From: Tubulanus polymorphus | Lineage: Eukaryota > Nemertea > Palaeonemertea > Tubulaniformes > Tubulanidae | Assembly: GCF_964204645.1 (NCBI RefSeq) | Contig: NC_134032.1 | Span: 2,630,916-2,694,915 of the forward strand | DNA length: 64,000 nucleotides | Direction of reading: 5' to 3' | Shown: piece after piece, positions 20,337-49,620 of the stretch | Layout: each line of letters opens with the position of its first letter | How positions within the stretch are numbered: the stretch's first letter is position 1 | The notes under the pieces: model-generated | Databases searched by the model: none | What the model was told of the DNA's origin: nothing | The model's input: only the letters and a program-made list of their open reading frames with translations | Translations under genes and position numbers: made by a program

Positions 20337-20340
20337 TTAA
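20337..20340. repeat. TTAA target-site duplication, left
   Basis: TTAA directly precedes the left inverted terminus AGGGTAACTGACAC. Its partner is at 27613-27616. Confidence 0.85.
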
Positions 20341-20533
20341 AGGGTAACTGACACTTTTTTTTTATTTCAAAATTCGATAAGTTCTATCGAACTAAGGAAG
20401 ACTTTGAAATAGTTCTGTTCAAAAATGTGTAGTTTCCGCGAAAATCGTGATTTTGTAAGACAACTTTTGACCTCATTTCGTTGTATACATCGCGTTAGAA
20501 ATCATCGGCAATTTCCGTCGATCTCCGGCGCTG

Positions 20534-20541
20534 TGACGTCA
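20534..20541 (+). promoter_or_regulatory. TGACGTCA (CRE/ATF-type) site upstream of the THAP gene
   Basis: A perfect TGACGTCA palindrome lies about 85 bases before the THAP start codon. TGACGT also occurs in the promoter of the opposite gene (about 27408-27413, in TGACGTAG). Both genes of the element may therefore respond to the same bZIP factor class. The role is inferred. Confidence 0.45.
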
Positions 20542-20623
20542 ATAAAGTGAGCACTGAAAATTCTCTTCTATGAAATAACGTTGCGTTTTTACTACTCGGC
20601 GTGTTTTCACTGCTTTTTCTCAA

Positions 20624-23212
20624 ATGCCAAATCGTTGTGTTTGCTTTGGGTGCGATTATTCGGATAGGGGTATATTTCTTTTTCCGAAGAATCCTGTTCT
20701 TCGAGAAAAATGGGCTTCTTTTGTAGGTTTAAAGCGATTGAATTGGAGCGGCCCAACGTCGAATAGCGTCGTGTGTTACCGGCATTTTACCAACGATGAT
20801 TTCGTTAATAAAATGCAGTATGATGCACAATTTGCAAAGAGGTAAGTTTCATTCAGTCATCTTAACATTTATTCGAGACATGGTTTGAGAATAATTATTG
20901 TATGGGCTTGAAAATCACTGTTAAAAGGGTCGCATTTTCAAGTCCAATTCAAATCAATAAAATTTATTTTTTCCACGCGCGGTATCCAATTCATAATTTT
21001 TTATGTCAAAATGCCGTTTAACTTTTGTTTGCTAAGCGTGATTGTAAAACCATGCCTTCTAGGTCAGCTTACATCGTGTGACAATAGAAACATCTTTTCA
21101 TTGAACTACTACTATAGGCCACAGTGCATTGGCCATCGTACAATAGGCTTTTATTGTCATTGTGAGTGCCTTACTTCACTCACTAACTACAATAACAAAA
21201 TGAATATTTCACGAGCCTTGTGAATTAACGGTTGCCTTTTGCTTGAAATAGATTGTTGCTGAAACAAGGAGCCGTGCCATCGATCCACACTGTGATAGAA
21301 ACCCCTGAATCTACATCTCAACCAGAGGATTTCTTCTCGCCACCACGAAAGCCTGGACGAAAAGTGTTTGAGAAGAGGGAGAGACGGCGAGTCATTGCTG
21401 AGACTGAGAGCCAGGTTTTGCATAATCTTCAACCAAATTTGGTTGAAGATTATGCAAAACCTGGTGAAGATGACGGCGGGGAAGTGTATGCGGAACCCGG
21501 TATCAAATCAGAGTTCGAGGCGACAAGAGAATTTGCTGTGCAGGCTGAACCGGATTGTAAATCTCGAGGTAGGATTTTCATGATGGTATGGTGTATCATT
21601 GTCATTCAGTTTTGAATATATCACTGTAATCATTGAATTTCATGTTATTTAATGATAATTTTTTCTAGGGATGCAAACGCTGAAAGAAACTGCACAGGTG
21701 AAGACCAAAATTGTGTACCGCATCAAACCTAAGATTATCTACAGAACGCCATTTAAGGCTCAGCGTTCAGTTGGAATCCAGGAAAATGCATTGAGTGAGT
21801 ATTCTTTATTCAGTCTATATCGTATTATGGTACGGCTTGTATTATGGGGTTTTTTATGATATCATCTATTCTCCCTATCTATTTAATCCTACTACTGTGA
21901 TTGGTCTGTTTTAGCCCGAAACATTGGTATTCAATGTAAGCGACCTGCTGAAGAACTTACAAATACCTCAAAAGCCATTTGTATTGGAGAAGAATCAGAT
22001 TTAGGGAGTGACAGTGAAGATGATGACTATCATCCAGATTCGGCAGAAGAGTCAGAGATGGACAGTGGCTCTGAGGATGATTCTGAAGGCAGAGTTATGT
22101 TTGAAGAAATGAGGTTAGTAAAGTATAATATTTTAATCATGAATGAACGTTGTTAAAAGTAAGTTCAAAAATTCTTTGTGTAGAATTTACATATCACTCA
22201 CGGAATCAAAAATGAGACGAAATACTAATTTTTCATTTCAAGGTTTAACTAAGAAACTAGAAATAATGTCAAGGAAAAAGGAATGTGAAGAAATCAAGGA
22301 TTGGATAAAGTCAATAAAATGTCATTTGTACTGGTGCGCTGCATCATCATCACCCAGGGATAAAGAAGGCATCAGTAAAAAATGGTCATCAGCAGTCAAA
22401 CACATCCAAGACAATCATGAAGACTGCAGCCATGAACCCATAACATCAGAAAAGAAATGGCTTTATCCAGGTAAGATATTATCTATTGCAACTACTGAAT
22501 CAGAAATTATATCTAATTTCATGTGATGAAACATTTGATGTACTATTTACAGGATCTTTGGTTGGTGATTCTATGCAAAAATATCTGACGAATACACGGG
22601 TTATAAATAAAGTGAAGATGATGTCACCATACGGCCAGACCAGTAAACTGGAGTGTCTTCACAGTTTATTCAATCATTTTGCCCCGAAGATGATTCAGTT
22701 TTCTTACAATGGAATGACAAGCAGGTAAGCAAAGTATATAACAATTGAGTGATTTCTATTTTTTCATACATATGTCCCTGCTAAGACTTATATCAATGTC
22801 TTATGTCTTCTCTTAGGTTACAAATAGCTGCCCTACATTTCAATGAGAATAGTGACAGAATACAAGGCACAAAGATTGATGGGACAAAAAAATATAGCAT
22901 TGTCTATCCAAAATACAAGGACACCCACACATTACGAAAACTACTCACTGATGCCACTTATGGTGAATATTAAAGTCATTAACTAAACTTATGTAAATAA
23001 TTCATTACCAAACACATTGTTGGCTAACAGTGTTTTTTATTTCAGAATATGTCGACATTTGCTGGAACAAGATACTCGAGGACGTGGAAGAAGCAGATAG
23101 GCCGAGGAAAATAATCACAGTACCACCAAATCTCACATCAAACAAAGAAAAAATCACCAAAGAGGAAGCCATCGCAATGCACAGGACAAGATTCAAAAAA
23201 ACTAATAGATGA
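20624..23212 (+). pseudogene. THAP-domain Kolobok transposase, catalytic core deleted
   Basis: Inferred exons: 20624-20841, 21252-21568, 21669-21794, 21915-22113, 22243-22470, 22553-22724, 22817-22972 and 23046-23212 (stop TGA). Exons 1-2 give a THAP zinc finger: CVCFGC, then WASF, VVCYRHF, then exon 2 LLLKQGAVPSI. Next come a linker and an acidic region (SDSEDDDYHPDSAEESEMD). The 22243 exon then jumps to the C-terminal part typical of these transposases: WIKSIKCHLYWCAASS, MSPYGQTSKLECLHSLFNHFAPK, AALHFNEN, YPKYK. The several hundred residues that should lie between, with the nuclease core, are absent. The phase of exon 22113 (2) does not fit exon 22243 (needs 1). This indicates an internal deletion in which the reading frame is lost. 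Poly(A) signals follow near 23601 and 23762. Confidence 0.75.
21411..21464. repeat. perfect 54-bp palindrome inside a THAP-gene coding exon
   Basis: The 27 bases at 21411-21437 (start ccaggttttgcataatcttc) are followed without spacer by their exact reverse complement at 21438-21464. The palindrome lies wholly in exon 2 and reads through in frame (QVLHNLQPNLVEDYAKPGED). In RNA it would form a 27-bp hairpin. Confidence 0.93.
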
Positions 23213-23330
23213 TTGAATGGTAAGTCTCTTGACATTTGTATTGAAGGTATAATTTCATTTAAAATTGTAATACATGCACATGAAAACATGACAATTATAT
23301 TGATTTTCTTAAAAAATACATTCTTTTTAG

Positions 23331-23553
23331 GTCTGCGGAAAAAATGATGACCCGAAGTGATGATTTAATTCGAAAAATAATGTACGAAGAAATATATTTG
23401 AAATTTGGCAGTTCAAAGATACCGAGTACGTTTTATTTCAACATCAGGAATCATGATATATCTTGTATTCGTTTTATAATTCAACCTAAAATATTTTTCA
23501 TGTCTTTTTCAGGTGATAAAGACAAAATATCTACATTTGCATGGGAAGATTAA
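23331..23553 (+). other. possible alternative 3' exons of the transposase gene
   Basis: After the stop at 23212, a tttttag acceptor (about 23330) opens a frame with MMTRSDDLIRKIMYEEIYLKFGSSK. A donor follows at about 23429. A ttttcag acceptor near 23513 then leads to DKDKISTFAWED and a TAA at about 23551-23553. These could be alternatively spliced terminal exons. Without transcript data this is only a plausible reading. Confidence 0.35.
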
Positions 23554-23903
23554 TGGTGAAACTACAAGTCTAAGTGAAAGTTGTAGACACCAGTTCACTC
23601 AATAAATGATCTGTAGAAAATTGATAGGAAACTGAAAATAAAATTATTGATCTGCTTAAGCATAACAAAACTGCTCCTTACTTGAACAATTAATTGCGAT
23701 CAGATGTTTAAATTAGAACTCAATGGATTGAAAGCAAAACGTTTTATACATTATAAATATGCAATAAAATTTATATTTTATATCTAAGCGATGTCATTGT
23801 TTTATTAAAATATCTGTAAGAAAAGCACAAGTTAAGAAGAATATATAAACATCGTTAGAATTTTTAAGTTGAATTCTTCTATTTTAATTCATTATGGTCC
23901 ATC

Positions 23904-24522
23904 TGTGACAGTGGTATTATTGAGTTTCAACAGCAGTCTCAATTCATAGGCAGTGCTGCCATCTTCTAACGATATCATAAACTATTCCGCATTCATTATC
24001 CAACTCATTCAACAGTGCCATCTTTCGTGATAAAACTTTCGAACTTTGTTCCAGCGTCAGCTTTCATATAACTTTTTGTACTGAGATTGAACCTTAGGAA
24101 AATTACGACTAATGCGCGTCAGTTGCTCGTAAGTATTTGCTTCTGCGAGCAACGACTGCCGCTGAAGAACATAATTCAAAGTTAATGTTACATTTTTCTG
24201 GGAAGCTGTCACGTATAATGTCCTTTTGTAATTATTTCGGTTGAATAATGATATTTTTATGGGCAACGCTGTTGCGCTAACGACAAATTAACGGGCTTTG
24301 GCAATGTCGTTCGCTAATGAGATGGGTTGGAGAATTGACTATATATACTGGGGTTTTTTGGACCGTGGGGGAGACCGCTAGAAATTTTTAGATCGTTGAG
24401 ATCAGTTCGTGAAATAAAAGTAATTTTGAAGACAGGAACTCTGTGTGTTGCGACTCGTTTATTCTTGGACGTTTGTTAACATTCTATCACTCAAGTGGAA
24501 TTCAAAGATCCCGATAGTGACA
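23904..24522 (+). repeat. LTR-like left end of the nested element
   Basis: This roughly 619-base stretch begins TGTGACAG and ends GATAGTGACA. It contains a TATA-like box (ctatatatactg, about 24340) followed about 70 bases later by AATAAA (about 24413), in LTR order. TGGTGGAGAACC at about 24525 may be a primer-binding site. No second full copy exists in the window; only its first 61 bases recur, inverted. Confidence 0.5.
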
Positions 24523-24817
24523 AATGGTGGAGAACCTGGCGGGCATTTTACTTGAGTGAGGTATCGAGCTATTTAACAAAACCAACGGAAACAAAGATAA
24601 TTCACTGGAACAATACAGGAAGTAGGAACTCGAGAAACGCACGGAAAATGGATTTTGGTAAATATTGAACAATACTTGTTATTTAATTTTGATTTCGTCG
24701 TGTGCGTAGAACAATTTTCTGTGGATAGACCGAATATTTTGCTGTCTCCTCCGGTCTATCGTACATTTAATTGACTTAATATTGAAGAACCTAGAAATTA
24801 TTTGATTGAATTTGTGT

Positions 24818-25612
24818 ATGCCGGTCGAAACGAGGTCTGGAATGGACCGCGCTTTGGCAGATAGACTAGCTGAAATGACAGCCAAAATTGACGATAAGCC
24901 AATGGGCATGACTCGTCTACAACCGCCACAGTTTACCGGTACGGTAAGCGAAGACGCTAATATTTGGTGGCGGCAGTTCACCCAATATTCTACTTTCATG
25001 GGCTGGACCAATGAAAAGAAACTTAAAGCAGTGGGGCTGTTTTTAGATGGACTTGCTTCGGCTTGGTATTGGACCGTGGTCGAGGCAAGCAAGTCAAAAG
25101 ACGCAACCGTTAAGACAACGGCGAATAGTATCTTATCAGATATTGACAACTTTGAAAGGGAATTCAAAAAGAAATTCGATTCTGGATCAATGAAATGGGT
25201 GCGTGAGCAAAGTTTAATGAACAGAAAACAATTACCGGGGGAATCGTTGGACGTCTATCTTCAAGACATCCAAATACGTTCGGCGGCTCTTGAAAAGAAC
25301 GATCATGATTTAATGGTCCTATTTATCAATGGCTTGGCGGACAATTTGAGAGCGTTTGTCGTATCTAGATCACCAACAACTATGGACGAAGCCGAACAAT
25401 ACGCGCGCTTGTATGAATCCGTGTTGGCGCTGCAGGCGAAACCGCCTCCAATTGCCGGCATCATATCATCCACTGAGAACCGAAATGAAATTTCGGATCT
25501 CAGGGATGAAATCAGGAATTTAAGCCGGGAAGTCTCGAGACTTCAGGTACAGGTCCGGAGGCAGGATAATAACCTGCCGCCACGAACTTCAGATCTGCTT
25601 CCGGATCTGTAG
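24818..25612 (+). CDS. Gypsy-type Gag (retrotransposon capsid), zinc knuckle frameshifted
   Basis: A frame of about 264 residues with the retrotransposon Gag signature: PPQFTGT...ANIWWRQF, GLFLDGLASAWY, FEREFKKKF and LPGESLDVYLQDIQ, then a coiled-coil-like Arg/Glu tail. The first ATG is at 24818. The frame stops at 25612. The adjacent frame carries on with VVCGRCNRVGHHERNCF, a CCHC zinc knuckle (C-x2-C-x4-H-x4-C), and an Asn/Arg/Pro-rich tail to about 25770. One base shift near 25590-25610 therefore separates capsid and knuckle, either as decay or as a programmed shift. Pol is missing. Gag normally coats retrotransposon RNA in virus-like particles. This copy could at most supply Gag. Confidence 0.75.
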   Translation: MPVETRSGMDRALADRLAEMTAKIDDKPMGMTRLQPPQFTGTVSEDANIWWRQFTQYSTFMGWTNEKKLKAVGLFLDGLASAWYWTVVEASKSKDATVKTTANSILSDIDNFEREFKKKFDSGSMKWVREQSLMNRKQLPGESLDVYLQDIQIRSAALEKNDHDLMVLFINGLADNLRAFVVSRSPTTMDEAEQYARLYESVLALQAKPPPIAGIISSTENRNEISDLRDEIRNLSREVSRLQVQVRRQDNNLPPRTSDLLPDL

Positions 25613-25913
25613 TTTGTGGTAGATGCAATCGAGTTGGGCATCACGAACGTAATTGTTTTAGGCAGAACGGTAGTTATCGGCCGGATAGACGGTTTAATAA
25701 TTCTAACAATAATTTCGGTAATCGTTCCAACGATAATCCTAATAGATTCAGGCCGGGAAACAACCCCAGGCCCGGATTTTAGGGGATGATTCCGAGCCAA
25801 AACATTCGTTTACAAAAGGTTGCCTAATATATTCATCAGAGATTTTACTGTTTTAATTCCTGCTTTGTTTCTCGTGTTGTTGTTCCTGTTCTTTGTACGT
25901 GAGTCTGTCACGA

Positions 25914-26446
25914 TGTCGTTAATCGTTCATCTTCCACGCGTGAATGGAGAATTCGAGGCAGGCATAGCAGCCGGCGTCGATCCCCGTCTCGCCGACACTG
26001 ACAAGCTCCCGATACATAACGCTGGAGATCACCAGGAAGCAAAGTCCATCGCCTGTGCATGGCTCTACCACAAGTATCGAGCATCAGCAAGCGATGAGGT
26101 ACTTGCAGTTTTGATGGGAGGAGTCATAGGTGGTCTGGACCTAGGGCTTTTCTCTAATGCGGATGGAGACGTGCTTGTGTCCAACCATGCTACTATATCG
26201 GCAACCGCACCAGAGCTGGAGACGTTTGTTAAGGATAAAGTTAGCATGGACGCTGTCCGTAAAGGAGTTACTTTGGCCATAGCTACAAAGGCAACTTGGT
26301 GGGCCATGAACCACCACACAGGCCAGGGCCGAGCGCAGGGCTACGCGAGAAAAGTGATGAGCACCTTTTTTGGAGAATCCAACGTAGATGGCAGCACTGC
26401 CTATGAATTGAGACTGCTGTTGAAACTCAATAATACCACTGTCACA
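25914..26446 (+). CDS. unidentified long frame in the nested element; possible captured RNA-virus nucleoprotein fragment
   Basis: An open frame starting MSLIVHLPRVN runs about 178 residues to the inverted end and then continues without stop into the antisense of the P2X-like gene. Its true C-terminus is therefore lost. Composition is Ala/Gly/Asp-rich and well balanced, with motifs such as LAVLMGGVIGG and WWAMNHHTGQGRAQGYARK. It looks like a genuine, undecayed protein segment, unlike the antisense frames. It has no retrotransposon Pol motif. The helix-rich character and the NHHTGQG motif recall nucleoproteins of negative-strand RNA viruses, possibly Jingchuvirales. This is a weak impression, and a profile search is decisive. 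It is truncated at its 3' end by the element border. Confidence 0.4.
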
Positions 26447-27388
26447 CATCAATCGACACATTACGAAATCCTTTATATACATGGTCCTCCTCATAACCGT
26501 CCTCAGGGAAATGTGCGCGGATGCACGAAACGACACAAGCAGGCAAAATTCTCCTATTTTCCTTGCCCAAATATCCCCAACACCACCGAACAAATGATCT
26601 GTATGCTACATGTCTTAATTTCGCATTTGCTGGCCCTTCAAAACTTTTCCGTCCGTACTGCCGTTTAAATTCGGTCCACATCAGCTGCAGGACCCAAGGG
26701 TTCAAACAGATCGAAGCGAAAGCTGCTGTGTCCGTCATGCAGGTCTCTTCATTTTGTCCGGACTCCTCCCAAACCCATTCCAGTCTTCTTTTCACGACAT
26801 CAATCTCCATACAGCACACACACACTTGCTCCGTCTCTAAGATCTGACAGTGTCCACATTGGCACCTAAAAAGATTATCCATAAAAATATTTTTAAGGTA
26901 TGGATATAGGTATCTACTTGTTGTAAGCCTATGCTGATGCAATGCAGTGCAAGAATAGTCCAGCAGTGCCAGCACAACGACGTTGAATCGCACTGAGCTT
27001 TTGAAACGAACATGATAAGATTCTCTCAACTTCGCCAACAAAGCTCAAAAACCCATAATTAAATCTACGGCTTAATGAATCTTAAAATATATATTTTTAA
27101 GTTAATTGTTATATGAACATACCACTGATTCAGATTATCCAGCTCCAAACGGTTTATTCGGCCTTCGTCGTCGTCTCCCTCTGCCTCCGGTCTGGGTCCA
27201 TCGCCGTTTCGCTTCGGTTCTGCCTCTGGTTCGTATAAATACGGCCCGATCATTAATTCCTCTTCGTCACTTGTTTCCTGCCATTCAAAATCACTAAGCG
27301 ATTCATCTGAATTTGATGCCGAAGTGGCATTAAATTCAGATGAATCGCTCCCATTGTCCGATTCTCTATTCATTTCTATAGACGCCAT
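26442..27388 (-). CDS. P2X7 intracellular-domain-like protein (two exons), transposon-borne
   Basis: Exon 1 (27388-27123) starts MASIEMNRESD and encodes an acidic, Ser-rich region with SDFEWQETSDEEEL. The donor is GTATGT. Exon 2 (26865-26442) completes NQW-CQCGHC in phase 2, giving WCQCGHC...CVCCME, then CMTD...FASICLNPWVLQLMW and YRSFVRWCWGYLG, ending ..NVSIDV. The product is about 229 residues. The WCxCGxC..CC...CxT order matches the zinc-binding C-terminal ballast domain of the P2X7 receptor, which also occurs alone in many invertebrate genes. No transmembrane or ATP-binding part is present, so it is not an ion channel. The last codons are altered by the nested insertion: joining the flanks suggests the older end was SIDGP. 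The function in a transposon is unknown. Confidence 0.8.
27297..27349. repeat. 24-bp-arm hairpin inside the P2X-like coding exon
   Basis: 27297-27320 (agcgattcatctgaatttga...) and 27326-27349 are inverted copies with one mismatch and a 5-base spacer. They lie fully inside exon 1 and encode the Ser/Asn/Asp-rich stretch SSEFNATSASNSDESLSD. It is the counterpart of the palindrome in the THAP gene. Confidence 0.9.
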
Positions 27389-27418
27389 TATTGAGTCGCT
27401 GCCTTTAATGACGTAGTT

Positions 27419-27428
27419 CTATAAATAG
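27419..27428 (-). promoter_or_regulatory. TATA box of the P2X-like gene
   Basis: CTATTTATAG on the minus strand lies about 30-40 bases upstream of the start codon, with a TGACGT half site just downstream. This implies a very short 5' UTR. Confidence 0.5.
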
Positions 27429-27612
27429 CCCGCAGTACACGTGTTTTTCCGGAACGATGTAAAAAAACGAGGCGCGCGAAAATCAAAATCATCAAATATC
27501 ATTATAAATTGAAATTTTTTCCGATCTTTCAAATTGTCAATCTCAATAGTATACTATAATGAATCATTTTATTCCAAAAGTAGAAAATTCTTGAAAAAGT
27601 GTCAGTTACCCT

Positions 27613-27616: not shown

Positions 27617-30600
27617 TTTGTCCCTTGTTCAATGACATGCGCGCAGCGCACGTTATACCTTAAAATTGGACCGAGTCATTTAAAACTCTGCCAACTTGTA
27701 AATTCTACAGGAAGAACACTTTTAGATCGATTGTTATACTGCCATCTTGTTGAAAGCAATTTTCGCGAATTTGTACTTTTTGCTCGACGCAAATTATTTT
27801 TTTTTGTGCAATAGAATATGAATAAATGAATGAACCGCAAATATTTCAGCTTTTCAACATCGATGGTTTTGCGTCACCGTTTCCATCGTTTGCTATTCAG
27901 AGGTAACACTTTTCATCGTCGAATATATTTGTATAGGGACAGGGTGGACCTATCCAAGGTTTTTGATTACTGCTTAGCTGCGGAAGGGCACCTTTGTCAT
28001 AGAAAATTTTGGGGCTCTGAGAGGCAATCTGAATCAATTTGGGGCATCATATCCCTTGTCTGCATCCACTAAATATGACATTTTGACATGTTAAAGACAA
28101 ATCATTGATAAAAAAAGAAGTTTACCCATTTTCGACTGTTCACATTTGTAATTTTAAAATCTATTCTACCTGAACTTCAAAAATAAAAGGACACTTCTTA
28201 TCTTCAATCATGAGTACCGTTCAAGCGGTAGTAGCGGTAGGCTGGATCCGTCACTGAGGTATTATCCCCGACCCTTGACTCCCATTCAGTCTGTTACTTG
28301 ACGAATTTTGTTTTGTAATGCTAAGATTTCATATGGGGAAGTACCCGGTGTAGGTTATGATTCTTGCGAGAAAAGTGATCGCTGATGACATCTATATCAA
28401 CTGCTGCTAATAAAGCGAATTCATCCTGTCAAATCAGAATTGATTTTGCTCTTTGCTGGCCGCGTGTCATTCGATCGAATCAGATTTGCACAGCAGGATA
28501 AATTTTACGATTTGTTAAAAACGACGGACAAGAAAATACTGTCCCTGATTTTCTATTATTATTACTAGTACGGTATTTCTATTCTATTATTACTAGTATT
28601 TCTACTTATGCATACAAATCTATATAGTTCTATCTATTTGATTCACTTGTATTTCATCTGATGAGGGGATATGATCTCGAAAACGTTCGTGTTTAATAAA
28701 CCATTTTTACTCATTAGAAAATGAGGTTTTCAACGTTACCGCTTTTATGGTTGTTCGGATACTTGAACTCTTTACCCATGATCAATTTTCTAATACCGCG
28801 TGAGTATCAGTTTCACTTTGAGTTTTGACCATTCGGATCAGTTTTACAAGTTGAGCTTTTCATGTTTTCCATTTGACAACCGTAAACCTTTGTAAGTACC
28901 TAATAACCCAGATCACGACGAACTAAGACGCACTTAAATATCCCTCCAGGTGATATGAGTCAATACTGAGATATTGAATTCGGTTTCTAATGACTATTAA
29001 AAATATGATCATCACGTAGTTATAATTGTTGTCTCACTCGGCTGAGATTCTAACAGATGGTTTATATGGATCTTTAATCAATTAAAACACCGAATATTAA
29101 TGCAATCATCAGCGCACAGGGCGCGGATGATTAGTCAGAAGTCCCGCGGTATTCGATGAGAGAGGAGATCAGTTAGGAGACCGAAAGCAAGTCTAACTTA
29201 TCAAATTTCGGAGCCGCCACGCATCCAGACTGTTGTAGCTATAATGAAATCAAACTCAACGATTGATTTTCTCATAAAAGGTGCGTCAATTTTTTCCACT
29301 GTAAAAACCGTTATTTATGGTGGATGGCATGTAAAAAAAAATGTTTACGTTTGCTGGTTTTTGTTCTCACCCGAGCATTCAAAACTTTTTGGATTTCTCA
29401 CACGAGAATTTGAAGATAATGTGGTTTTCTCGCGCGAGCTTTCGAAACTGCGTTTTCTAAAAAAGAAAACATAAACGTTTTGTAATTTAGTAAATGATAT
29501 CATTTTTTGACGCCTTATAAAACGTTACCATTATGAAACCTAAACAATGATAACCATTCAGCGTCATTTTACAAACGACAACCGTAAATCGATGTGCAAA
29601 ACGTCATAGGTTTATGTGTACACATACAAGCTATTTGGCAAAATATTATTGATACAGATGTAGAATGGCTCCCTGGGATTATATAATGACCTCTATTTGA
29701 ACGTCGAAATGTTATATCGTATTGAATATCATGAGAAGACGTATTGTAATAGTAAAGGATGTATGATTATATCAGGGGCGGCAGGGATAAATAGAAATGA
29801 TAAGTTAATCGGATTATTCGGTTAAATGGCGGATGTATACACGATTTGGAAGTCTGATATAAAAGTCAGACCCTGACATGGGGATGCTAGTGGAATGACG
29901 AAGCTATCTACGATCTGAGTTGGGCCGGCGTGAATTTCATCGGCGGCTACAAGCGGTCTATATAAAAACGTGTAAACATATAATTTCAATATTCAAATGT
30001 TTTAGAAAATATGTTCGATATAAGACGAATGCAGGTTTCATGAGATTAGCAATTTATAATAGCATAGCTGTCATATACGGCTCCGCATCGACTGATGGCA
30101 TGTGTATAAGGTGACAATTAAATTCAATACTTTATTGATCCTTATTACATTGAAATTCCGGGATAAAATTCCAAAAATCAATACATTTACAAATTTTAAA
30201 ATAAGAAAATACAAGACACACGGGTAATTCATACAGAATAACATGAATAAGTTAATTATATGACAATGTCTACTTCAACCCAGACTCAAGTCTAGGATAT
30301 CAAGTGACAGCCAGACCGGGCCCCAGGACCGGGCTGGCTGGCTACACGATATGCTCAAAGTCATGATGAAGCAGACATCAGAAGAGCTCTTTCTTCAACC
30401 ATGGAGGCAATGAAGTTTCAGACCAGCTTAGAAGCAAAAGTGAATCGAAGTCACAAGTTGACAATTTTTTTTTGTTGATTAGACCAGTCGAAAACTGTAT
30501 CATCTACCCAATCGCCAAATCTCATAATTCCCGAAATTTCTTAAAACTTCGTTTTCAAATTTGCAATTCCACATTAGCTTATACCAGAAATTCTACATTT

Positions 30601-30790
30601 TTCCGCAGGCGTCAAATAATTTATTAAAGTTAATTTTCTTGTTTCCATTTACCTCCAAAGTCTCGCTGACGGCTGGTTATTTGATTGAAGCGATTCGGGT
30701 AAGAAACGCAATCCGTATAGTGATACCTGGATGATTATTCGAATCCATCAAAACTACGTTCTAATGAATTGTCCACGTGACTGGTTTTTA
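27617..30790. other. intergenic, repeat-bearing; possible unseen 5' exons of the CAP gene
   Basis: No firm coding exon. Candidate first exons ending in a GT donor were examined at about 29244 and 30040, but neither encodes a signal peptide. A repeat 3' end (28650-28775) shared with 59772-59918 is present. 30300-30340 holds an imperfect GC-rich palindrome (agccagaccgggcc / ggaccgggctggct). Confidence 0.4.
28650..28775 (+). repeat. 3' end of a dispersed retroelement-like repeat
   Basis: From tactcattagaaaatgaggt through cgcttttatggttgttcgga to tgaactctttaccc the sequence matches both arms of the fold-back insertion at 59772-59918. Upstream is ctgatgaggggatatgatctcgaaaacg, resembling tails found in Penelope-like and SINE families. 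Confidence 0.6.
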
Positions 30791-41219: not shown

Positions 41220-42113
41220 ATGAAAAAAGGATCAATGGAAAAAAATTATGAAAAATCTCAAGATGAAGACTACAGAAGAGTTGAAAATGAAATCTTAAAT
41301 GAAAACCTAAAAAACGCTCAAAATGAAAACTTTAACGAAACGCAAAAAGAAAACTCTGATAACAATCAAAACAAGAAGTATGAAGTGAAAATCAATGAAA
41401 ACTTTGAACCAAAAACTAATGAGAACTATGAATTGAATGCAAATGAAAAAGATGAAATGAAAATGACTGAAAAACATGGAATGAAAATGAATGCAAAATA
41501 TGAAATGCATATGAATGGAAACTATGATTTGAAAACAAATGAAAAAGATGAAATGAAAATGACTGAAAAACATGAAATGAATATTAATGAGATCTATGAT
41601 CAGACTATGAATCAAAATTGTGGAACTAATTCGAATGAAGATATGACAAAAAACAAAGTTAAGACAATTGAAGTGAAATCAGTTTTTTGTGACTTCAATC
41701 ATGACAACTGTGATACGATTATGCATGACAACTATGATAAGACTAAACAAGGCAACTATGAAAAGGCTATATATGGAATCTGTGAAAAGATTACACTTGA
41801 CAACTGTGATAAGATTTAACATGATAACGCTGGTCACAATATACATGAAACCTCATCGAAAATGAAAGCTGACTCATCTATTCAACCAATTTCGAGTATG
41901 ATTTCGTGTAGAGATTGTGATGGCAATTTTGGTAACAGTGAGTCATGTTTAAGTGCTGAGAATATGAGATGTTCATCAATTCATGGAAATTTCCACCAGG
42001 GTCATCCAAAATACGGTATTCATTCAGGTAAGCAATGTGTAACAAATGCATTAGCTGCAATGATTCATGCATCAAATAAAGCTGTATGCCTCATGATATT
42101 GATTCAGTATTGA
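41220..42113 (+). pseudogene. Helentron N-terminal ORF: Asn/Lys/Glu repeats then protease-like start
   Basis: Residues of the first part (41220-41816) form degenerate repeats of the type NEKDEMKMTEKHEMK, a low-complexity region. A TAA at 41817-41819 interrupts it. The same frame resumes (41820 on) with DCDGNF, then SGKQCVTNALAAMIHASNKA, which looks like the catalytic-Cys segment of a papain-fold peptidase. The frame is lost near 42083 and continues one frame over. Confidence 0.6.
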
Positions 42114-44218
42114 ATATTGGAAATGATTTATACGCAACATTGACTAATATGAATACAATAACAAATATGTATTTATTGATCAGTGAGCTACCAACTGCTG
42201 TTGAGATTGGAAATTCCATTTATAATGTGACTGTTGGATCCCCTCAAGTTGCTATATCTGAATTATCTGATGAAATGAGAGCTGGAAATTTTGGAATTAT
42301 CAGTGAACTACATGAATGTTTGCACAATAATCTGCTTAATTACGACACATGCTTTATAACATTTGCTGGAAATACATTTTGTGTTTTAAAACAGGATGAC
42401 ATGTACTGGGTATTTGATTCACATTCGAGAGATGCATCAGGAATGATGCCCGCTGATGGACATGCTGTATTAGTAAGGTACTCTTGTGTTAATTGTATTG
42501 TCAAACATTGTCAGAATCTTGCAGCTTCAATGAATCAGAGGCAACCAATACAGTATGAAATTACAGTGGCTTCTATCAACCATGAAATTGAAACTACTGT
42601 AGAGAATAGCATTATCGAAACAACGACTACATACTCTCCAAACTACCAACAAACAAGTAGTGAAGATGAACTGCCCTATACAAACCCAAAAGTAGATGAA
42701 TGCGATGTAATTGTTACTAGTGAATCCGTGCAGCATGATGATTTAATTTACAACCCACTAGAAAAAGGTCAGTGCAAAACATTATGCTCTATTCTAGGTA
42801 TTCATTGTCGACCCTCAACTCTCGGATATGAATGTATGCCCAAATATGATGGACAACTCTACTCTCCATGTAATACGCAGAAAATTAAAGGCGATGGAAG
42901 CTGTTTTTTTCGGGCAATTTCATATTCAATCTGTGGAACTGAGCAATATCATCGGGCTATACTCACCGAAGTTTTAAAGCACATGCGGCAGAATTCCGAC
43001 AAATTCCAACCACATCTGAGAAATCCACAACTTACTATAAATGAGTATATTGATGAATCCCGTATGAAATATACAGGTACTTGGGTGACAGAGGTTGAAA
43101 TTCTTGCAACAGCTGATTTACTGCATGCTGATATATATACATTTGTAGGCAATGGTTGGTTACGATTCGCTGGTTCTACTTTCAGTGCACCAAATCGTGT
43201 GTGTGAATTAAATGGCAACATTTATTTGAAAAATTGCAGAGGTGTACAATATGAAGTTGTGTCATGTGTGAAACAATCTGAGGAATGTATTTGCTCTTGG
43301 TGTGGCAAGCGACGAAATACTGAAAAAACGGATGATAAAAAAGCCCTGAAAAGGCAGTATAATTATCAAAGATATCATGAAGATGAAGATTACAAACAGC
43401 ACAAACAGAAATTAGCATGTATGAAATCAAAAAATGACGAGGCCTATCGTTTAAATCAAAACCAGCAGAGGCAAATCAGATACAATGATGATGACTCGTC
43501 TTATCGTAGAACGAAGATGTCTAGTACTCTTAGAAGATACTATAATGATATCAATTATAAGCAAAAGGTAAATAAGCGAACATCAGAGAAATACAAAAGT
43601 GACGTTGACTTCAGAAATAAAGCTAAGCTTTGTAGTATTCAGAAATACAAAAGTGATGAGCAACATCGAGCACAACTAAGAACTAACAGCATCGAGAAAT
43701 ATCATAATGATGAACAGCATCAAGCCCAAGTTAAATCTTACAGCATTGCAAAATACCAAAATGATGAACAGCATCGACGCCAAGTTAAATCTTACAGCAT
43801 TGAAAAATACCAAAATGATGAACAGCATCGAGCCCAAATTAAATGTTACAGCATTGAAAAATACCAAAATGATGAACAGCATCGAGGCCAAGTTAAATCT
43901 TACAGCATTGAAAAATACCAAAATGATGAACAGCATCGAGCCCAAGTTAAATCTTACAGCATTGAAAAATACCAAAATGATGAACAGCATCGAGGCCATG
44001 TTAAATCTTACAGCATTGAAAAATACCAAAATGATGAACAGCATCGACGCCAAGTTAAATCTTACAGCATTGAAAAATACCAAAATCATGAACAGCATCA
44101 AGCCCAAGTTAAATTTAACAGCATTGAAAAAACCGAAATGATGAACAGCATCGAGCCCAAGTTAAAACATTCAGTGTTGAAAAGTATCAAACCAACATGC
44201 AACATCGTGATAAAATGA
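42086..44218 (+). CDS. Helentron protease-like and OTU domains with 18-residue repeats
   Basis: 710 codons. Residues 1-150 complete the peptidase-like domain begun upstream (DIDSVLNIGNDLY, YDTCFITFAGNTF, YWVFDSHSRD with a D-x-H pair). The Cys lies in the preceding frame, so the domain is split by a shift. Residues about 255-400 form an OTU-type cysteine protease (KIKGDGSCFFRAISYSICG). OTU proteases act on ubiquitin-like modifiers and are common in Helentrons. CICSWCGK near residue 405 may bind zinc. From about residue 500 come repeats of KSYSIEKYQNDEQHR type, 18 residues (54 bases) each. A missing base near 44128 ends the frame early. Restoring phase would join it to the next ORF. Confidence 0.75.
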   Translation: MPHDIDSVLNIGNDLYATLTNMNTITNMYLLISELPTAVEIGNSIYNVTVGSPQVAISELSDEMRAGNFGIISELHECLHNNLLNYDTCFITFAGNTFCVLKQDDMYWVFDSHSRDASGMMPADGHAVLVRYSCVNCIVKHCQNLAASMNQRQPIQYEITVASINHEIETTVENSIIETTTTYSPNYQQTSSEDELPYTNPKVDECDVIVTSESVQHDDLIYNPLEKGQCKTLCSILGIHCRPSTLGYECMPKYDGQLYSPCNTQKIKGDGSCFFRAISYSICGTEQYHRAILTEVLKHMRQNSDKFQPHLRNPQLTINEYIDESRMKYTGTWVTEVEILATADLLHADIYTFVGNGWLRFAGSTFSAPNRVCELNGNIYLKNCRGVQYEVVSCVKQSEECICSWCGKRRNTEKTDDKKALKRQYNYQRYHEDEDYKQHKQKLACMKSKNDEAYRLNQNQQRQIRYNDDDSSYRRTKMSSTLRRYYNDINYKQKVNKRTSEKYKSDVDFRNKAKLCSIQKYKSDEQHRAQLRTNSIEKYHNDEQHQAQVKSYSIAKYQNDEQHRRQVKSYSIEKYQNDEQHRAQIKCYSIEKYQNDEQHRGQVKSYSIEKYQNDEQHRAQVKSYSIEKYQNDEQHRGHVKSYSIEKYQNDEQHRRQVKSYSIEKYQNHEQHQAQVKFNSIEKTEMMNSIEPKLKHSVLKSIKPTCNIVIK
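43640..44130 (+). repeat. 54-bp tandem repeat array in the Helentron ORF
   Basis: About nine copies of a 54-base unit encoding YSIEKYQNDEQHRxQVK, the central ones nearly identical. The array stays open in several frames and on both strands, so overlapping frames here are artefacts. Confidence 0.9.
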
Positions 44219-47200
44219 AAAGACTAAGCATCAACAAGTATGCAGGTGATCCTAAAATCAAGGAAATGGTTGTTGCTTCCACAAGATCACGTCGTGAAAA
44301 TGAAAAATTGAAAAAGAAAGACATCAACTATGTGATCAGTGAATTTCGACGTGTATCTAAAGACGGTCCTGAATATGTCTGCTCTGTGTGTCATCGACTC
44401 TTGTTCAGAAATCAAGTTAAAGATCTTATTGAAAACAATTACACTACTCATGGACCTACACATGCTGAAATTGCTCAAAAATGTATAACAAATACATATC
44501 TACATGTCTGCAATGAAGATTGTCCAACACCATGCACCTTGAAAACTGAACCATCAATTAAGCAGTGGATTTGTCACAATTGTCATCATAAGTTATTGAT
44601 GGCTAAGATACCATGTGAGGCTGCTTGCAATAATTTGCAGTTAGATAGAGTTCCAAGAGAATTATCACATCTGAATCCACTGGAGGAGCATCTTATTGCG
44701 ATAAACATTCCATTCATTAAGATGATTGCTTTGCCGAGGCAAGGACAGCATGGTTGTCATGGGCCTGTTGTATGTGTGCCAAGTGATGTTAAAAAAACTA
44801 CTACAATATTACCTCGTGATTCATCTGATGATCAAATGATGAAAGTTAAATTGAAACGCAAACTCACGTACAAGGGTCACTATCAGTATCAGTTTGTTGA
44901 CCAGAAAAAAATCATGGATGCTCTTACCACTTTAAAATCAATTAACAAACACTATCGTGACATTGAACTGAACCAAGACTGGACCAATTGTCTTGAAAAA
45001 ATTGATGAAGAATCAGAATCTGAAGTGCTCTCAACTGATAAATCGTCGTCCAATATAGATGAAAGCTGTGTGAATTCCTTACCTACTGCTAAGAGTGAAG
45101 CAGATAAGGAAACAAATGGAACTGATTCACAGGAAGAAACCGAGGCAGAAAATCTACACGAAATGTATATGAATTCATGTCTACAACCAATTGATATTGG
45201 TCAAGAAATTCTTGATGCACACTTTAATGATATTTTGTGTCCGGCACCAGCTGAAAATAACAGCCCAATACAAATATTAACCGACAAAGAAAATGAAGCC
45301 AAATCATTCCCCACATTGTTTCCTACTGGAAGATTCACTTATCATGCTGTTCGTGATGAAAGAATCACTCTCGCACGATATTTACATACCCGATTGATGA
45401 ACGCTGATCCAAGATTCTCTCGAAATACTGACTTTATTTTCTATTCACAATTTTTGTCAGAAATTAATCAGGTTGCATCAAATGTATCGATAGCGCTACG
45501 AAAAGGAGTGAAAGATAGCACTCGGCAATTTCATGTCGGATTGGATAGTCTAAGAAATCTCAAAGACGTGAATGATATCTTCAAGTATAATGATGGCTAC
45601 AAGTTTTTGAAACCAATACGAGGAACACCACCATTCTGGCAGGCTGCTCAAAAAGACTTATTGGCTATGGTTCGGCAATTAGGTGTCCCTACATTTTTTG
45701 TGTCATTTTCAGCCGCTGAAATGAGATGGAATGAACATTTAGAAGCTATAATGCGAATCGATGGATGCAATAAACCAGTTAGTGAATTGTCATGGTCTGA
45801 GAAATGTGGTATTTTGAGACGCAATCCTGTCACTGCTGCACGCATTTTTGATCACAGATTTCATACATTCCTTAATGATGTTATCAAATCCCCAGCGCAA
45901 CCTATTGGTGAAATTCAAGACTTTTTTTATCGAGTAGAATTCCAGATGAGAGGCAGCCCACATGTACATGCACTGATATGGGTAAAAGACGCACCGAAAT
46001 CAGGAATTGATGACGACGCTAATGTCACCTCGTTTGTAGATCGATATATCACCTGTAAATTACCTGATGATTCTGAGGATCCTGAATTACATGAAACTGT
46101 AACCAGTGTCCAAATGCACAGCAAAAGACACTCAAAAACATGCCGCAAGAAAGGTACTAAATGTAGGTTTAATTTCCCAAAGAATCCTTCATTACAAACA
46201 TTTTTGACTCAAGAAAAATACGAACCCCCACCACCACCAAGTACTGATGAATCGAATAATGAAGAACCATTAAATGAACAAATTGAGGCAGCTAGCAATG
46301 CAATGAGTCCCGATCAAGCGAAAGAAATATTACAGAAAGTGTGGGAATTGATGAACAAAGAGGATACTGATTTATCAACTACAGAATCACTGTACAGATC
46401 AATTGGAATCACACAAGATATGTTTGAAGAAGCTTATCGTTGTTTATCACGTAAGAGTAGTGTCGTTTTGAAAAGGGAACCAAATGAATGTTGGGTAAAT
46501 CAATACAATCCTGCATTATTGAGAGCCTGGCAGGCTAACATGGATATACAGTATGTGACTGATGCATTTGCATGCGTAGTATACATAGTATCGTATATCT
46601 CAAAGAGTGAACGAGAAATGGGTCTTTTATTAGAACACACAAGAGCGGAGGCTGCAGATAATAATCAAAGCGCGAAACAAGCCATGAAATCATTAGGTTC
46701 AACTTATCTCCATAATCGTGAGGTGTCAGCTCAAGAAGCAGTGTATCGAGTTTGTAATCTAAAAATGAAGCAAGGATCTCGAAAAGTTCAGTTTATTCCT
46801 ACAGGTGACAATATCATTAAATTAAGTAAACCACTGAGCGTATTACAATCAAAAAGCGCAGATCACGATTTGACTGATGATGATGTATGGATGACTGGCA
46901 TCGTAGAACGATATCAAAATCGACCTGATGATGAGGAATTTGAACAAATGTGTTTGGCTCAATTCTGCTCTGAATATAGGATTCTCGCAAAATCTCAAGT
47001 GAACAACAGCAGCATAGCATTGAAAAATGAGAGTGGATATATCAGAAAGAGAACCAACACAGCCCCGGCAGTTGTCAGGTATGCTAGATTTTCAAAAACA
47101 AAACAACCTGAAAAACATTATCAAACAAGTCTACAATTATTTCTGCCATATCGTCAAGATGAACAATTAAAACCACCAGGTTTTGAAACATTCGAAGTTT

Positions 47201-49620
47201 TCTATGAAACAGGGCATGTATGTTTAGGTTCAGCACCATTAACGGCTGTTAAACATATTGTAGACAAACATCGCAGTTGGTTCGAAGCCGATATTGAAAC
47301 ATTTGACATGGCGCAAGAAATGTTGAATACAAATGATGAGTACGAGGATGCATGGGCTCAAATTGCACCGGAATGTGAACATGAAAGACATGAGGCTATT
47401 GCTGAATCACAACCTAATACCCACGATGACAATGAAAATGACCCTAATGATATACCGGATTTGCAGTATACCGCAGAAAAAAAATCACCTGGCAACTATG
47501 CAATTGAAAATTCAAATGCAGCCCTATCAAAAGACGCTGCATGGAAATTAATTCGATCATTGAACAATCAACAGAAAGAGGTATTCTATAAACTGAGACA
47601 GTGGTGTATTGATATTCGTAATGGTCATAACCCTAAACCATTTCATATATTTCTAACAGGCGGAGCAGGTACAGGAAAATCACATTTGATAAAGGCTATC
47701 AAATATGAGGCATCAAGAATTCTTGCACCAACTGCTGAAAACCCAGATGATGTAACTGTTTGTTTGACTGCTCCAACAGGTGTTGCCGCATACAATATTG
47801 GTGCGACTACAATTCATAATACGTTTGCTATTAACATTGGAGCTAAATTACCGTATGTACCTTTGAGCGATGACAAAATATCTGAATTACGTGTGAAGTT
47901 CAACAGTCTCCAAATAGTGATAATCGATGAAATATCTATGGTTGATCATAAAATGCTTGGTTATGTACACGGCAGATTGAGGCAGATAAAACAATGTCCT
48001 GATTATTCTCCATTTGGTAATGTCAGTGTTATAGCTGTCGGTGATTTCTATCAACTGCCTCCAGTCAAAGGCAAACCTCTGTATTCACCGCCTGATAATG
48101 GTGTTGATTTATGGACTAATGTATTTGAAATTGTAGAATTACAAGAAATAATGCGCCAAAAAGGTGGTGAATTTGCAGCTATGTTGAACCGACTAAGATC
48201 AAAAAAGAAAGAAGATATGCTATCAGATACAGACGACGCAACCTTGAAAGCAAGAGTTACAGGTGAAACCAATGCAACTGCTTTAGGTATATACTCTACG
48301 AACAATCAAGTAGACGACGTTAATACAGCCATGTTGACAGAAAACTGCACTAACATTGTTGAAATTGCAGCACATGATTTGACTAAAGATCCAAGAACTG
48401 GCAGATTGATAAAAAAAGTTAATTACCACATAAGCAATAAGAGCTTATCATCGGCAAAAAGCTTATTGTTAGCCTATAATGCAAGAGTTATGCTGACTAA
48501 GAATATCAATGTTTCAGATGGACTAGTCAATGGAGTTCTTGGCACTGTGTCGCATATATCATTTGATGATGACATGGAATGTACTACAATATATGTGATT
48601 TTTGATGATAAAAAAATCGGTAAAGAACTACGTAATACGTCTAATGTTTCTAATGTGCCAGAAAATAGTACACCAATAGTACGAGTTGAGGAATCAGCGA
48701 TGAAAAATAAAGGCGTGCGTCGACAATTCCCATTGAAATTAGCTTGGGCCTGTACAGTTCATAAAGTTCAAGGAGTTACAGCACAAAACGCAGTAGTTTC
48801 GTTGAAAAAGATTTTCTCACCTGGACAGGCAGACGTAGCACTGAGTCGAGTGACATCTATTGAAGGTTTAATTCTTGAGGATTATTCACCCAAGGCAATT
48901 TTTTGCAATGAGCTCATTAAACCAAGCGTTGAAAATATGACTCCATTCATACAAACTGAAAATGATCTATGTAACGACTGTACCCTCACTATGGCTCTAC
49001 ATAATACTGAAGGTTTACCCGCCCACTATAATGATATTGCTAATGATGAAAGGCTTTCGGGAATAGATTATATTTGTGTCACTGAAACCTGGTTAACTGA
49101 TGATCACAACAGTGTCGACATTCAGGGATATAACTTCCACCATCAGACAAGATCTATGAGTTATGATATTGATCATGAAATGGTAACACAAATTCACGGT
49201 GGTGTAGGTATTTATGCAAAATTAACATCAGATTATGACCAGATTCCGCTACAAACAAAGAATATTGAATGTATGGCCATAAAGGATCACAAATCCGGAA
49301 TAGCATTTGCTGTAATATATCGTCCTCCCTCCTACAATGTAACTCCATTCAAAATAGCTCTGAGAGATGTTATTTGTGAAATACGATCACACTCTGATCA
49401 AATAGCTATTGTTGGTGATTTCAATGAAAATGTATTAGTATCGTCGAGTGTTGCAAATATGCTCGAAACATTTGGATATGTACAATGTGTTACTATGCCA
49501 ACTACAAATGCTGGAACGCTTGTAGATCATGTATATGTCACTGGTTTTGCACGACCGCACATTCATATAGTACCCACTTTCTACAGTCATCACGATATAG
49601 TTTCGCTAGGATTCCTCTAA
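44197..49620 (+). CDS. Helentron Rep-helicase-endonuclease polyprotein
   Basis: 1807 codons. Order: repeat remnant (RLSINKYAGDP), a Cys-rich region (YVCSVCHRLLF, WICHNCHHKLL), the HUH Rep domain with FQMRGSPHVHALIW (residue about 588) and downstream YITCKLP tyrosine region, then a PIF1-type helicase: GGAGTGKS (about 1153), DEISMVD (about 1243), QLPPVKG, VHKVQGVTAQ (about 1520) and ALSRVTSIEGL. Last is an endonuclease/exonuclease/phosphatase domain with TETWLTDDHN, GVGIYAK, VIYRPPS, GDFNEN and a final SHHDIVSLGF (about 1625-1807). Known role: nicking, rolling-circle strand transfer and unwinding during transposition. The endonuclease resembles that of CR1-type LINEs. This large frame is fully open. 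Confidence 0.92.
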   Translation: MQHRDKMKRLSINKYAGDPKIKEMVVASTRSRRENEKLKKKDINYVISEFRRVSKDGPEYVCSVCHRLLFRNQVKDLIENNYTTHGPTHAEIAQKCITNTYLHVCNEDCPTPCTLKTEPSIKQWICHNCHHKLLMAKIPCEAACNNLQLDRVPRELSHLNPLEEHLIAINIPFIKMIALPRQGQHGCHGPVVCVPSDVKKTTTILPRDSSDDQMMKVKLKRKLTYKGHYQYQFVDQKKIMDALTTLKSINKHYRDIELNQDWTNCLEKIDEESESEVLSTDKSSSNIDESCVNSLPTAKSEADKETNGTDSQEETEAENLHEMYMNSCLQPIDIGQEILDAHFNDILCPAPAENNSPIQILTDKENEAKSFPTLFPTGRFTYHAVRDERITLARYLHTRLMNADPRFSRNTDFIFYSQFLSEINQVASNVSIALRKGVKDSTRQFHVGLDSLRNLKDVNDIFKYNDGYKFLKPIRGTPPFWQAAQKDLLAMVRQLGVPTFFVSFSAAEMRWNEHLEAIMRIDGCNKPVSELSWSEKCGILRRNPVTAARIFDHRFHTFLNDVIKSPAQPIGEIQDFFYRVEFQMRGSPHVHALIWVKDAPKSGIDDDANVTSFVDRYITCKLPDDSEDPELHETVTSVQMHSKRHSKTCRKKGTKCRFNFPKNPSLQTFLTQEKYEPPPPPSTDESNNEEPLNEQIEAASNAMSPDQAKEILQKVWELMNKEDTDLSTTESLYRSIGITQDMFEEAYRCLSRKSSVVLKREPNECWVNQYNPALLRAWQANMDIQYVTDAFACVVYIVSYISKSEREMGLLLEHTRAEAADNNQSAKQAMKSLGSTYLHNREVSAQEAVYRVCNLKMKQGSRKVQFIPTGDNIIKLSKPLSVLQSKSADHDLTDDDVWMTGIVERYQNRPDDEEFEQMCLAQFCSEYRILAKSQVNNSSIALKNESGYIRKRTNTAPAVVRYARFSKTKQPEKHYQTSLQLFLPYRQDEQLKPPGFETFEVFYETGHVCLGSAPLTAVKHIVDKHRSWFEADIETFDMAQEMLNTNDEYEDAWAQIAPECEHERHEAIAESQPNTHDDNENDPNDIPDLQYTAEKKSPGNYAIENSNAALSKDAAWKLIRSLNNQQKEVFYKLRQWCIDIRNGHNPKPFHIFLTGGAGTGKSHLIKAIKYEASRILAPTAENPDDVTVCLTAPTGVAAYNIGATTIHNTFAINIGAKLPYVPLSDDKISELRVKFNSLQIVIIDEISMVDHKMLGYVHGRLRQIKQCPDYSPFGNVSVIAVGDFYQLPPVKGKPLYSPPDNGVDLWTNVFEIVELQEIMRQKGGEFAAMLNRLRSKKKEDMLSDTDDATLKARVTGETNATALGIYSTNNQVDDVNTAMLTENCTNIVEIAAHDLTKDPRTGRLIKKVNYHISNKSLSSAKSLLLAYNARVMLTKNINVSDGLVNGVLGTVSHISFDDDMECTTIYVIFDDKKIGKELRNTSNVSNVPENSTPIVRVEESAMKNKGVRRQFPLKLAWACTVHKVQGVTAQNAVVSLKKIFSPGQADVALSRVTSIEGLILEDYSPKAIFCNELIKPSVENMTPFIQTENDLCNDCTLTMALHNTEGLPAHYNDIANDERLSGIDYICVTETWLTDDHNSVDIQGYNFHHQTRSMSYDIDHEMVTQIHGGVGIYAKLTSDYDQIPLQTKNIECMAIKDHKSGIAFAVIYRPPSYNVTPFKIALRDVICEIRSHSDQIAIVGDFNENVLVSSSVANMLETFGYVQCVTMPTTNAGTLVDHVYVTGFARPHIHIVPTFYSHHDIVSLGFL

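Follow-up and report, generated by a model that had tools for sequence, protein, structure and literature searches.

A single-LTR Ty3/Gypsy insertion in Tubulanus polymorphus that ends in two U3 tips and carries a probable qinvirus-like nucleocapsid fragment

The window, i.e., the whole stretch of 64,000 nucleotides of Tubulanus polymorphus that was analysed, corresponds to C8:2630916-2694915, and all genome searches were made against the assembly of 267.8 Mb in 77 contigs. It contains a DNA transposon, which we take to be Kolobok-like, and nested within this an insertion (23904-26446) that consists, in this order, of an LTR, a part of gag, 586 bp of foreign sequence, and an inverted 61-bp copy of the LTR tip. 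The features are (window positions):

20341-27612, no strand assigned: DNA transposon hosting the insertion, flanked by TTAA (at 20337 and 27613), with inverted repeats at its termini (about 19 bp) recognised by eye
23900-23903, plus strand: left copy of the target duplication CATC, which is single in the empty sites read
23904-24522, plus strand: complete LTR of 619 bp (TGTGACAG...TAGTGACA), with full-length genome matches that include four same-strand pairs
24525-24542, plus strand: probable primer-binding site 2 nt past the LTR, assigned by eye from its position and its TGG start
24806-25612, plus strand: capsid part of gag, its frame broken in the chimera (Retrotrans_gag Pfam E 6.4e-6)
25573-25782, plus strand: remainder of gag with a weak zinc-knuckle-like motif (zf-CCHC E 0.18, below the cut-off)
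25800-25912, plus strand: putative viral leader, 113 nt without ATG, starting where all four proviruses diverge (25799/25800)
25913-26385, plus strand: probable qinvirus-like nucleocapsid gene, codons 1-157, without stop (BLASTP to qinvirus-like proteins)
26386-26446, minus strand: U3 tip, i.e., LTR positions 1-61 inverted, 61/61 bases identical to the LTR start
26447-26450, plus strand: right copy of the target duplication CATC

The host transposon contains a THAP-domain exon (THAP Pfam E 5.5e-10). Its other copies begin at about window position 20337, and at C8:3446801 a site without the transposon is present, where the flank matches overlap by 4 bp. Near-identical copies of it are found on several chromosomes. 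It also includes a perfect palindrome of two 27-nt arms without spacer (21411-21464), and a P2RX7_C-like open frame lies on the minus strand at 26448-27044. Elsewhere in the window, an OTU protease frame is followed by a frame of 1829 codons with Helitron_like_N, PIF1 helicase, and endonuclease (42080-49614), proteins that are presumably Helentron-like, and a repeat of 1.14 kb (about 29503-30643) has at least 31 further matches at 94-98% identity among the best 40 of 2974 candidates.

The original prediction had described the nested insertion as a full LTR of 619 bases followed by gag and an unrelated coding sequence, without pol, bordered on the right by the first 61 LTR bases in inverted orientation and flanked by a 4-bp CATC duplication, and this description holds throughout. 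The pair 23904-23964 and 26386-26446 is identical at all 61 bases (the 64 nt given by the inverted-repeat search comprise this pair plus a run into the flank), and the right-end tip stops exactly at LTR base 1; outside it lies the CATC of 26447-26450, matching that of 23900-23903. A second LTR with its U5 terminus, as a complete LTR retrotransposon insertion possesses, is lacking at the right end. Concerning the interior, three open frames searched against Pfam yielded gag, the weak zinc knuckle, or no domain, such that no pol domain was found in these frames, and the match to the related proviruses ends where pol starts. With its single LTR, the insertion is not datable by LTR comparison.

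Alignment of the LTR to the genome gave at least 46 matches (40 of 45 candidates scored). Among those listed, 15 are full-length matches of at least 96% identity: two in the chimera and its duplicate, eight in the four same-strand pairs, which belong to four proviruses, and five solo LTRs. The LTR pairs of the proviruses differ at 1, 0, 0, and 0 sites, and the family is a young, recently active Ty3/Gypsy family. Gypsy copies of full length bounded by an LTR on either side, which the original prediction had called for, are thus present, and together with the solo LTRs they provide the related elements whose absence would have spoken against it. The four proviruses exhibit direct TG...CA LTRs around gag-pol, whereas the chimera has one LTR and no pol. 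A 4-bp duplication flanks all four proviruses, all five solo LTRs examined, and the chimera, all drawn from the full-length matches of at least 96% identity; in one provirus (L044/L045) it likewise reads CATC. Two of the proviruses are about 10.9 kb long and two 6.4-6.7 kb. In the one provirus whose pol piece was searched (L044), aspartic protease, RT, RNase H, an integrase zinc finger, and a chromodomain were found. In L044 the chromodomain comes behind the integrase, and the 908 codons of a third open frame give an envelope-like match to Baculo_F (E 4.9e-15); the two proviruses of about 10.9 kb, which have identical LTR pairs, are L044, L045 (C8:6524352-6535270) and L046, L047 (C3:18835704-18846621).

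In all four proviruses, the 3' LTR is directly preceded by AAGGGGGG-TATA, so that the start of the plus strand adjoins the U3 tip. The gag part of the chimera is 99% identical to the four proviruses through window position 25799, beyond which all four continue with one common, other sequence; since they leave the chimera at the same point, 25799/25800 is the left breakpoint. The gag frame of the proviruses is open over 325 codons.

A genome search with 25780-26446 gave 24 candidates, all of which were scored. Two matches cover the whole query (the window locus and C8:4210177), and the other 22 cover the tip alone, each of them being an LTR start and none an inverted end; one inverted-tip insertion therefore exists, which was copied once. 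No second U3/U3 insertion is found among these 22 tip matches. The left flank of the insertion recurs in 13 further copies of the surrounding repeat; in 11 of these, the left and right flank matches overlap by exactly 4 bp and thus form an empty site (nine at 99-100% identity, two older). The two copies excluded from this count, both older, are C4:14802523, where the left match is one base short, and C4:19365584, where the flank matches do not adjoin. Compared with the joined flanks, two of the four empty sites read are identical and one has one difference; the fourth, in an older copy, has 23 differences in an ungapped count and reads GGTCCATCAATC at the site.

The chimera locus itself occurs twice on C8, at 2.65 and 4.21 Mb, and an alignment of the two chimera copies over about 2543 bp shows four substitutions plus one indel. 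The duplicated stretch (window positions of about 560-61378 versus C8:4.186-4.254 Mb, about 1.55 Mb apart) falls into six main blocks with identities between 91.7% and 99.7%, of which the longest spans 31.5 kb (99.5%). Because both loci share their flanks far past the transposon, the second copy is attributed to a segmental duplication (>60 kb) and not to a second retrotransposition. Further partial copies of the duplicated stretch are found elsewhere on C8 among the matches listed. As far as assembly sequence can tell, the presence of the locus at two places with five differences, together with the empty sites, argues against borders created by an assembly join.

The foreign part (25800-26385, 586 bp) comprises a leader of 113 nt that contains no ATG, followed by 157 codons free of stops, and its sense is that of gag. 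A protein search with a longer frame found one relative, P0001 (E 2.3e-18); the same search with the 158-aa piece alone found none at E 0.01, probably owing to length limits that exclude full-length relatives. A profile built from the window frame and P0001 (the best 7996 candidates by common words scored) recovered six proteins including P0001 itself, namely P0002 of Wenzhou qinvirus-like virus 1, P0003 and P0004 of Bemisia tabaci, P0005, and P0006. The E-value of P0002 (434 aa, contig 1803) in this profile search is 3.2e-63, a value resting mostly on the longer P0001. By BLASTP, the window piece exhibits 34% identity over 151 aa to P0002 and equally to P0004, and the longer frame 36% over 171 aa to P0001; in the alignment of seven rows, every row has N-H-H-x-G, G-Y, and the K that follows. 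The whitefly genome proteins P0003 and P0004, as relatives of the qinvirus nucleocapsid, are probably endogenous copies themselves.

The database record of P0002 is titled hypothetical protein, and the nucleocapsid label comes from the ICTV profile, according to which the qinvirid S segment of 1.6-1.9 kb encodes the nucleocapsid protein N (PMC10721934). Neither the viral fragment nor P0001 yielded a domain in Pfam or anything significant among PDB sequences, and the AlphaFold model of P0002 with alignment is poor (mean pLDDT 50.9); with these and the first protein search empty, the viral identity rests on sequence identities of 34-36%. A scan of viral_contigs for a relative of the donor gave 20 pattern matches, none of which was confirmed, and in the animal's own assembly the foreign DNA, its protein, and P0002 matched only the two chimera copies. 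An origin from a qinvirus-like negative-strand RNA virus, a source that the original prediction had not foreseen, is well supported by these similarities, and by homology the segment would be an endogenous element from Qinviridae (S-segment nucleocapsid) comprising 157 codons of N only. The leader, which none of the relatives covers, is called viral because it is placed ahead of the viral ATG. Its sense and its start 113 nt before the first ATG are expected if copying reached the 5' end of the viral mRNA or came near it. The contig of P0001, 1071 nt in length, leaves at most about 117 nt before the ATG, which is compatible, though only weakly so, with a near-complete leader.

Concerning the origin of the whole insertion, the TATA that precedes U3 in the proviruses is absent at both chimera ends, as in processed tips. 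Two clean U3 tips without TATA and a duplication of the size typical of the family indicate that integrase joined two U3 ends, and hence that the cDNA carried a U3 tip at each end. This U3/U3 integration is well supported; template switching as the joining process, as well as the particle as its setting, we infer. The original prediction had offered a template switch to another RNA and a return to a U3 end, followed by integrase joining two U3 tips, and the data favour this reading: very probably, by whichever route, a reverse-transcribed chimera was inserted via two U3 tips. For one specific order of jumps, in which strand order and direction are deduced from the final structure, we see about an even chance. 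A Ty3/Gypsy particle would also have contained a qinvirus-like nucleocapsid mRNA. Plus-strand DNA would have started from the polypurine tract, at the U3 tip, and been extended by about 61 nt, after which its 3' end would have switched onto viral plus-sense RNA as template, with copying in the direction of the viral 5' end. On reaching this end or its vicinity, synthesis would have jumped to gag of a retrotransposon RNA and proceeded to the primer-binding site, and an ordinary second-strand transfer would have completed the left LTR. The resulting linear cDNA would possess a U3 tip at each end, both of which integrase would have trimmed and joined inside the DNA transposon, producing the 4-bp duplication; the segmental duplication of more than 60 kb would later have copied the locus.

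The same chimera might also have arisen by another route, in which the plus strand passed through gag onto viral minus-strand genomic RNA and from there onto a plus strand, either its own or another, at the U3 start, and ran off at the 5' end of that strand. This route yields the same structure, and the identity of the inverted tip to the element's own LTR start (61/61) agrees with it, but the jump that it needs must land on or near the 3' end of the viral genome, whereas copying that runs off an mRNA at the 5' end would stop by itself, provided that the viral end lies there; we regard it as an unlikely though serious contender that takes up a minor share of the probability given to the chimera as a whole. 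Host end-joining of cDNA pieces (LTR-gag, viral cDNA, and a 61-bp U3 end) prior to insertion by integrase is improbable, and less likely than the template-switch routes. Homology between the joined templates, which only a comparison with the donor virus would reveal, could not be shown at the joins, and this leaves room for such joining, but it would need three independent DNA pieces, among which the viral cDNA would itself require reverse transcription.

Two Gypsy insertions in opposite orientation that lost the sequence between them, or a subsequent rearrangement at the locus, would draw on the LTRs of the same family found elsewhere on C8, and CATC may be a somewhat favoured target, given the provirus with the same duplication. 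Nevertheless, the outer flanks carry the matching 4-bp duplication, for which a chance match has a probability of about 1 in 256, CATC is single in the empty sites read, and the viral piece would require a separate event; on the matching duplication and the empty sites this origin is rejected as very improbable. The original prediction had also considered a Ginger-like DNA transposon carrying gag, to which inverted ends and a 4-bp duplication would correspond and for which many copies with 61-bp inverted ends were to be expected. That expectation failed, as all 22 other tip matches are LTR starts: inverted ends belong to one insertion event, four Gypsy proviruses possess two direct LTRs, the many copies of a Ginger element were not found, and the three open frames searched yielded no transposase, so that the probability of this origin is negligible. 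A reverse-transcribed chimera inserted via two U3 tips thus remains the preferred reading.

Chimeras of LTR elements and foreign RNAs are known, and the U3/U3 architecture appears to be new within the reach of a limited literature search. This search, at the level of titles and beginnings of abstracts, found no virus chimera with U3/U3 ends, which is weak evidence of absence. Tan et al. (2016) reportedly described LTR-mediated retroposition of host mRNAs, and Geuking et al. (2009) are said to have found chimeric integration of IAP and LCMV in mouse and infected cells. The IAP/LCMV case resembles the present one in that recombination between an LTR retroelement and an unrelated RNA virus reportedly gave rise to an integrated product, but it comes from mouse and infected cells, whereas here both ends and the empty site are resolved at an assembly locus and two U3 tips are present. 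That LTR elements and foreign mRNAs can be joined by template switching has already been described, and LTR-mediated retroposition, as summarised in passages of PMC5408686, equally involves an LTR element and a foreign mRNA, template switching in the particle, and insertion by integrase. According to the same passages, its product keeps LTR ends, whereas the chimera contains viral RNA sequence and ends on the right in an inverted U3 tip without a second LTR.

In Aedes, passages of PMC5497376 report viral fragments near Ty3/Gypsy elements, which its authors consider compatible with template switching, and one viral fragment inside a full-length Pao-Bel element. The link to Gypsy elements is common to both cases, but what these passages describe for Aedes is an association, whereas at the present locus the joins can be read directly. 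Endogenous sequences of qinvirus-like type are mentioned for ants, with RdRP fragments for this clade in a table (part of PMC6540820), and for arthropods generally (part of PMC6955108). These copies are genomic Qinviridae genes as well; those listed for ants in this clade are RdRP fragments, whereas the chimera holds a nucleocapsid fragment within a Gypsy chimera. Finally, aberrant retroviral integrations, in which host enzymes join one of the ends and large duplications or deletions are usual (part of PMC5041404), share rearranged provirus ends with the chimera but differ from its clean 4-bp duplication at both ends.

Concerning the host of qinvirids, low read numbers are taken in part of PMC10496375 to suggest that those in arthropod samples may infect microbes of the arthropods rather than the arthropods themselves. 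That an animal genome holds a viral copy argues for contact between virus and cells of the animal itself: a relative of qinviruses and an animal retroelement would have shared one cell lineage, which bears on the question of whether qinviruses infect animals or microbes only.

Germline entry of RNA viruses that lack an RT is usually inferred from nearby retroelements. The present locus preserves the entry event, with the donor retroelement family, the viral gene, both joins, both ends, the target duplication, and the empty site, and may thus constitute a base-level record of one possible way of a viral RNA into an animal chromosome. One LTR, a foreign segment, an inverted U3 tip, and a duplication of the size typical of the family form a searchable signature, which can be counted in other genomes. 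Tentatively, and with somewhat less confidence than in the order of jumps proposed above, we suggest that a nascent plus strand begun at the polypurine tract can act as primer for the reverse transcription of an unrelated mRNA, such that any RNA in the particle might be turned into a substrate for integrase that has a U3 tip on each side and lacks a second LTR. This would be a general entry route for non-retroviral genes, and if it exists, such insertions would escape searches for LTR-flanked insertions.
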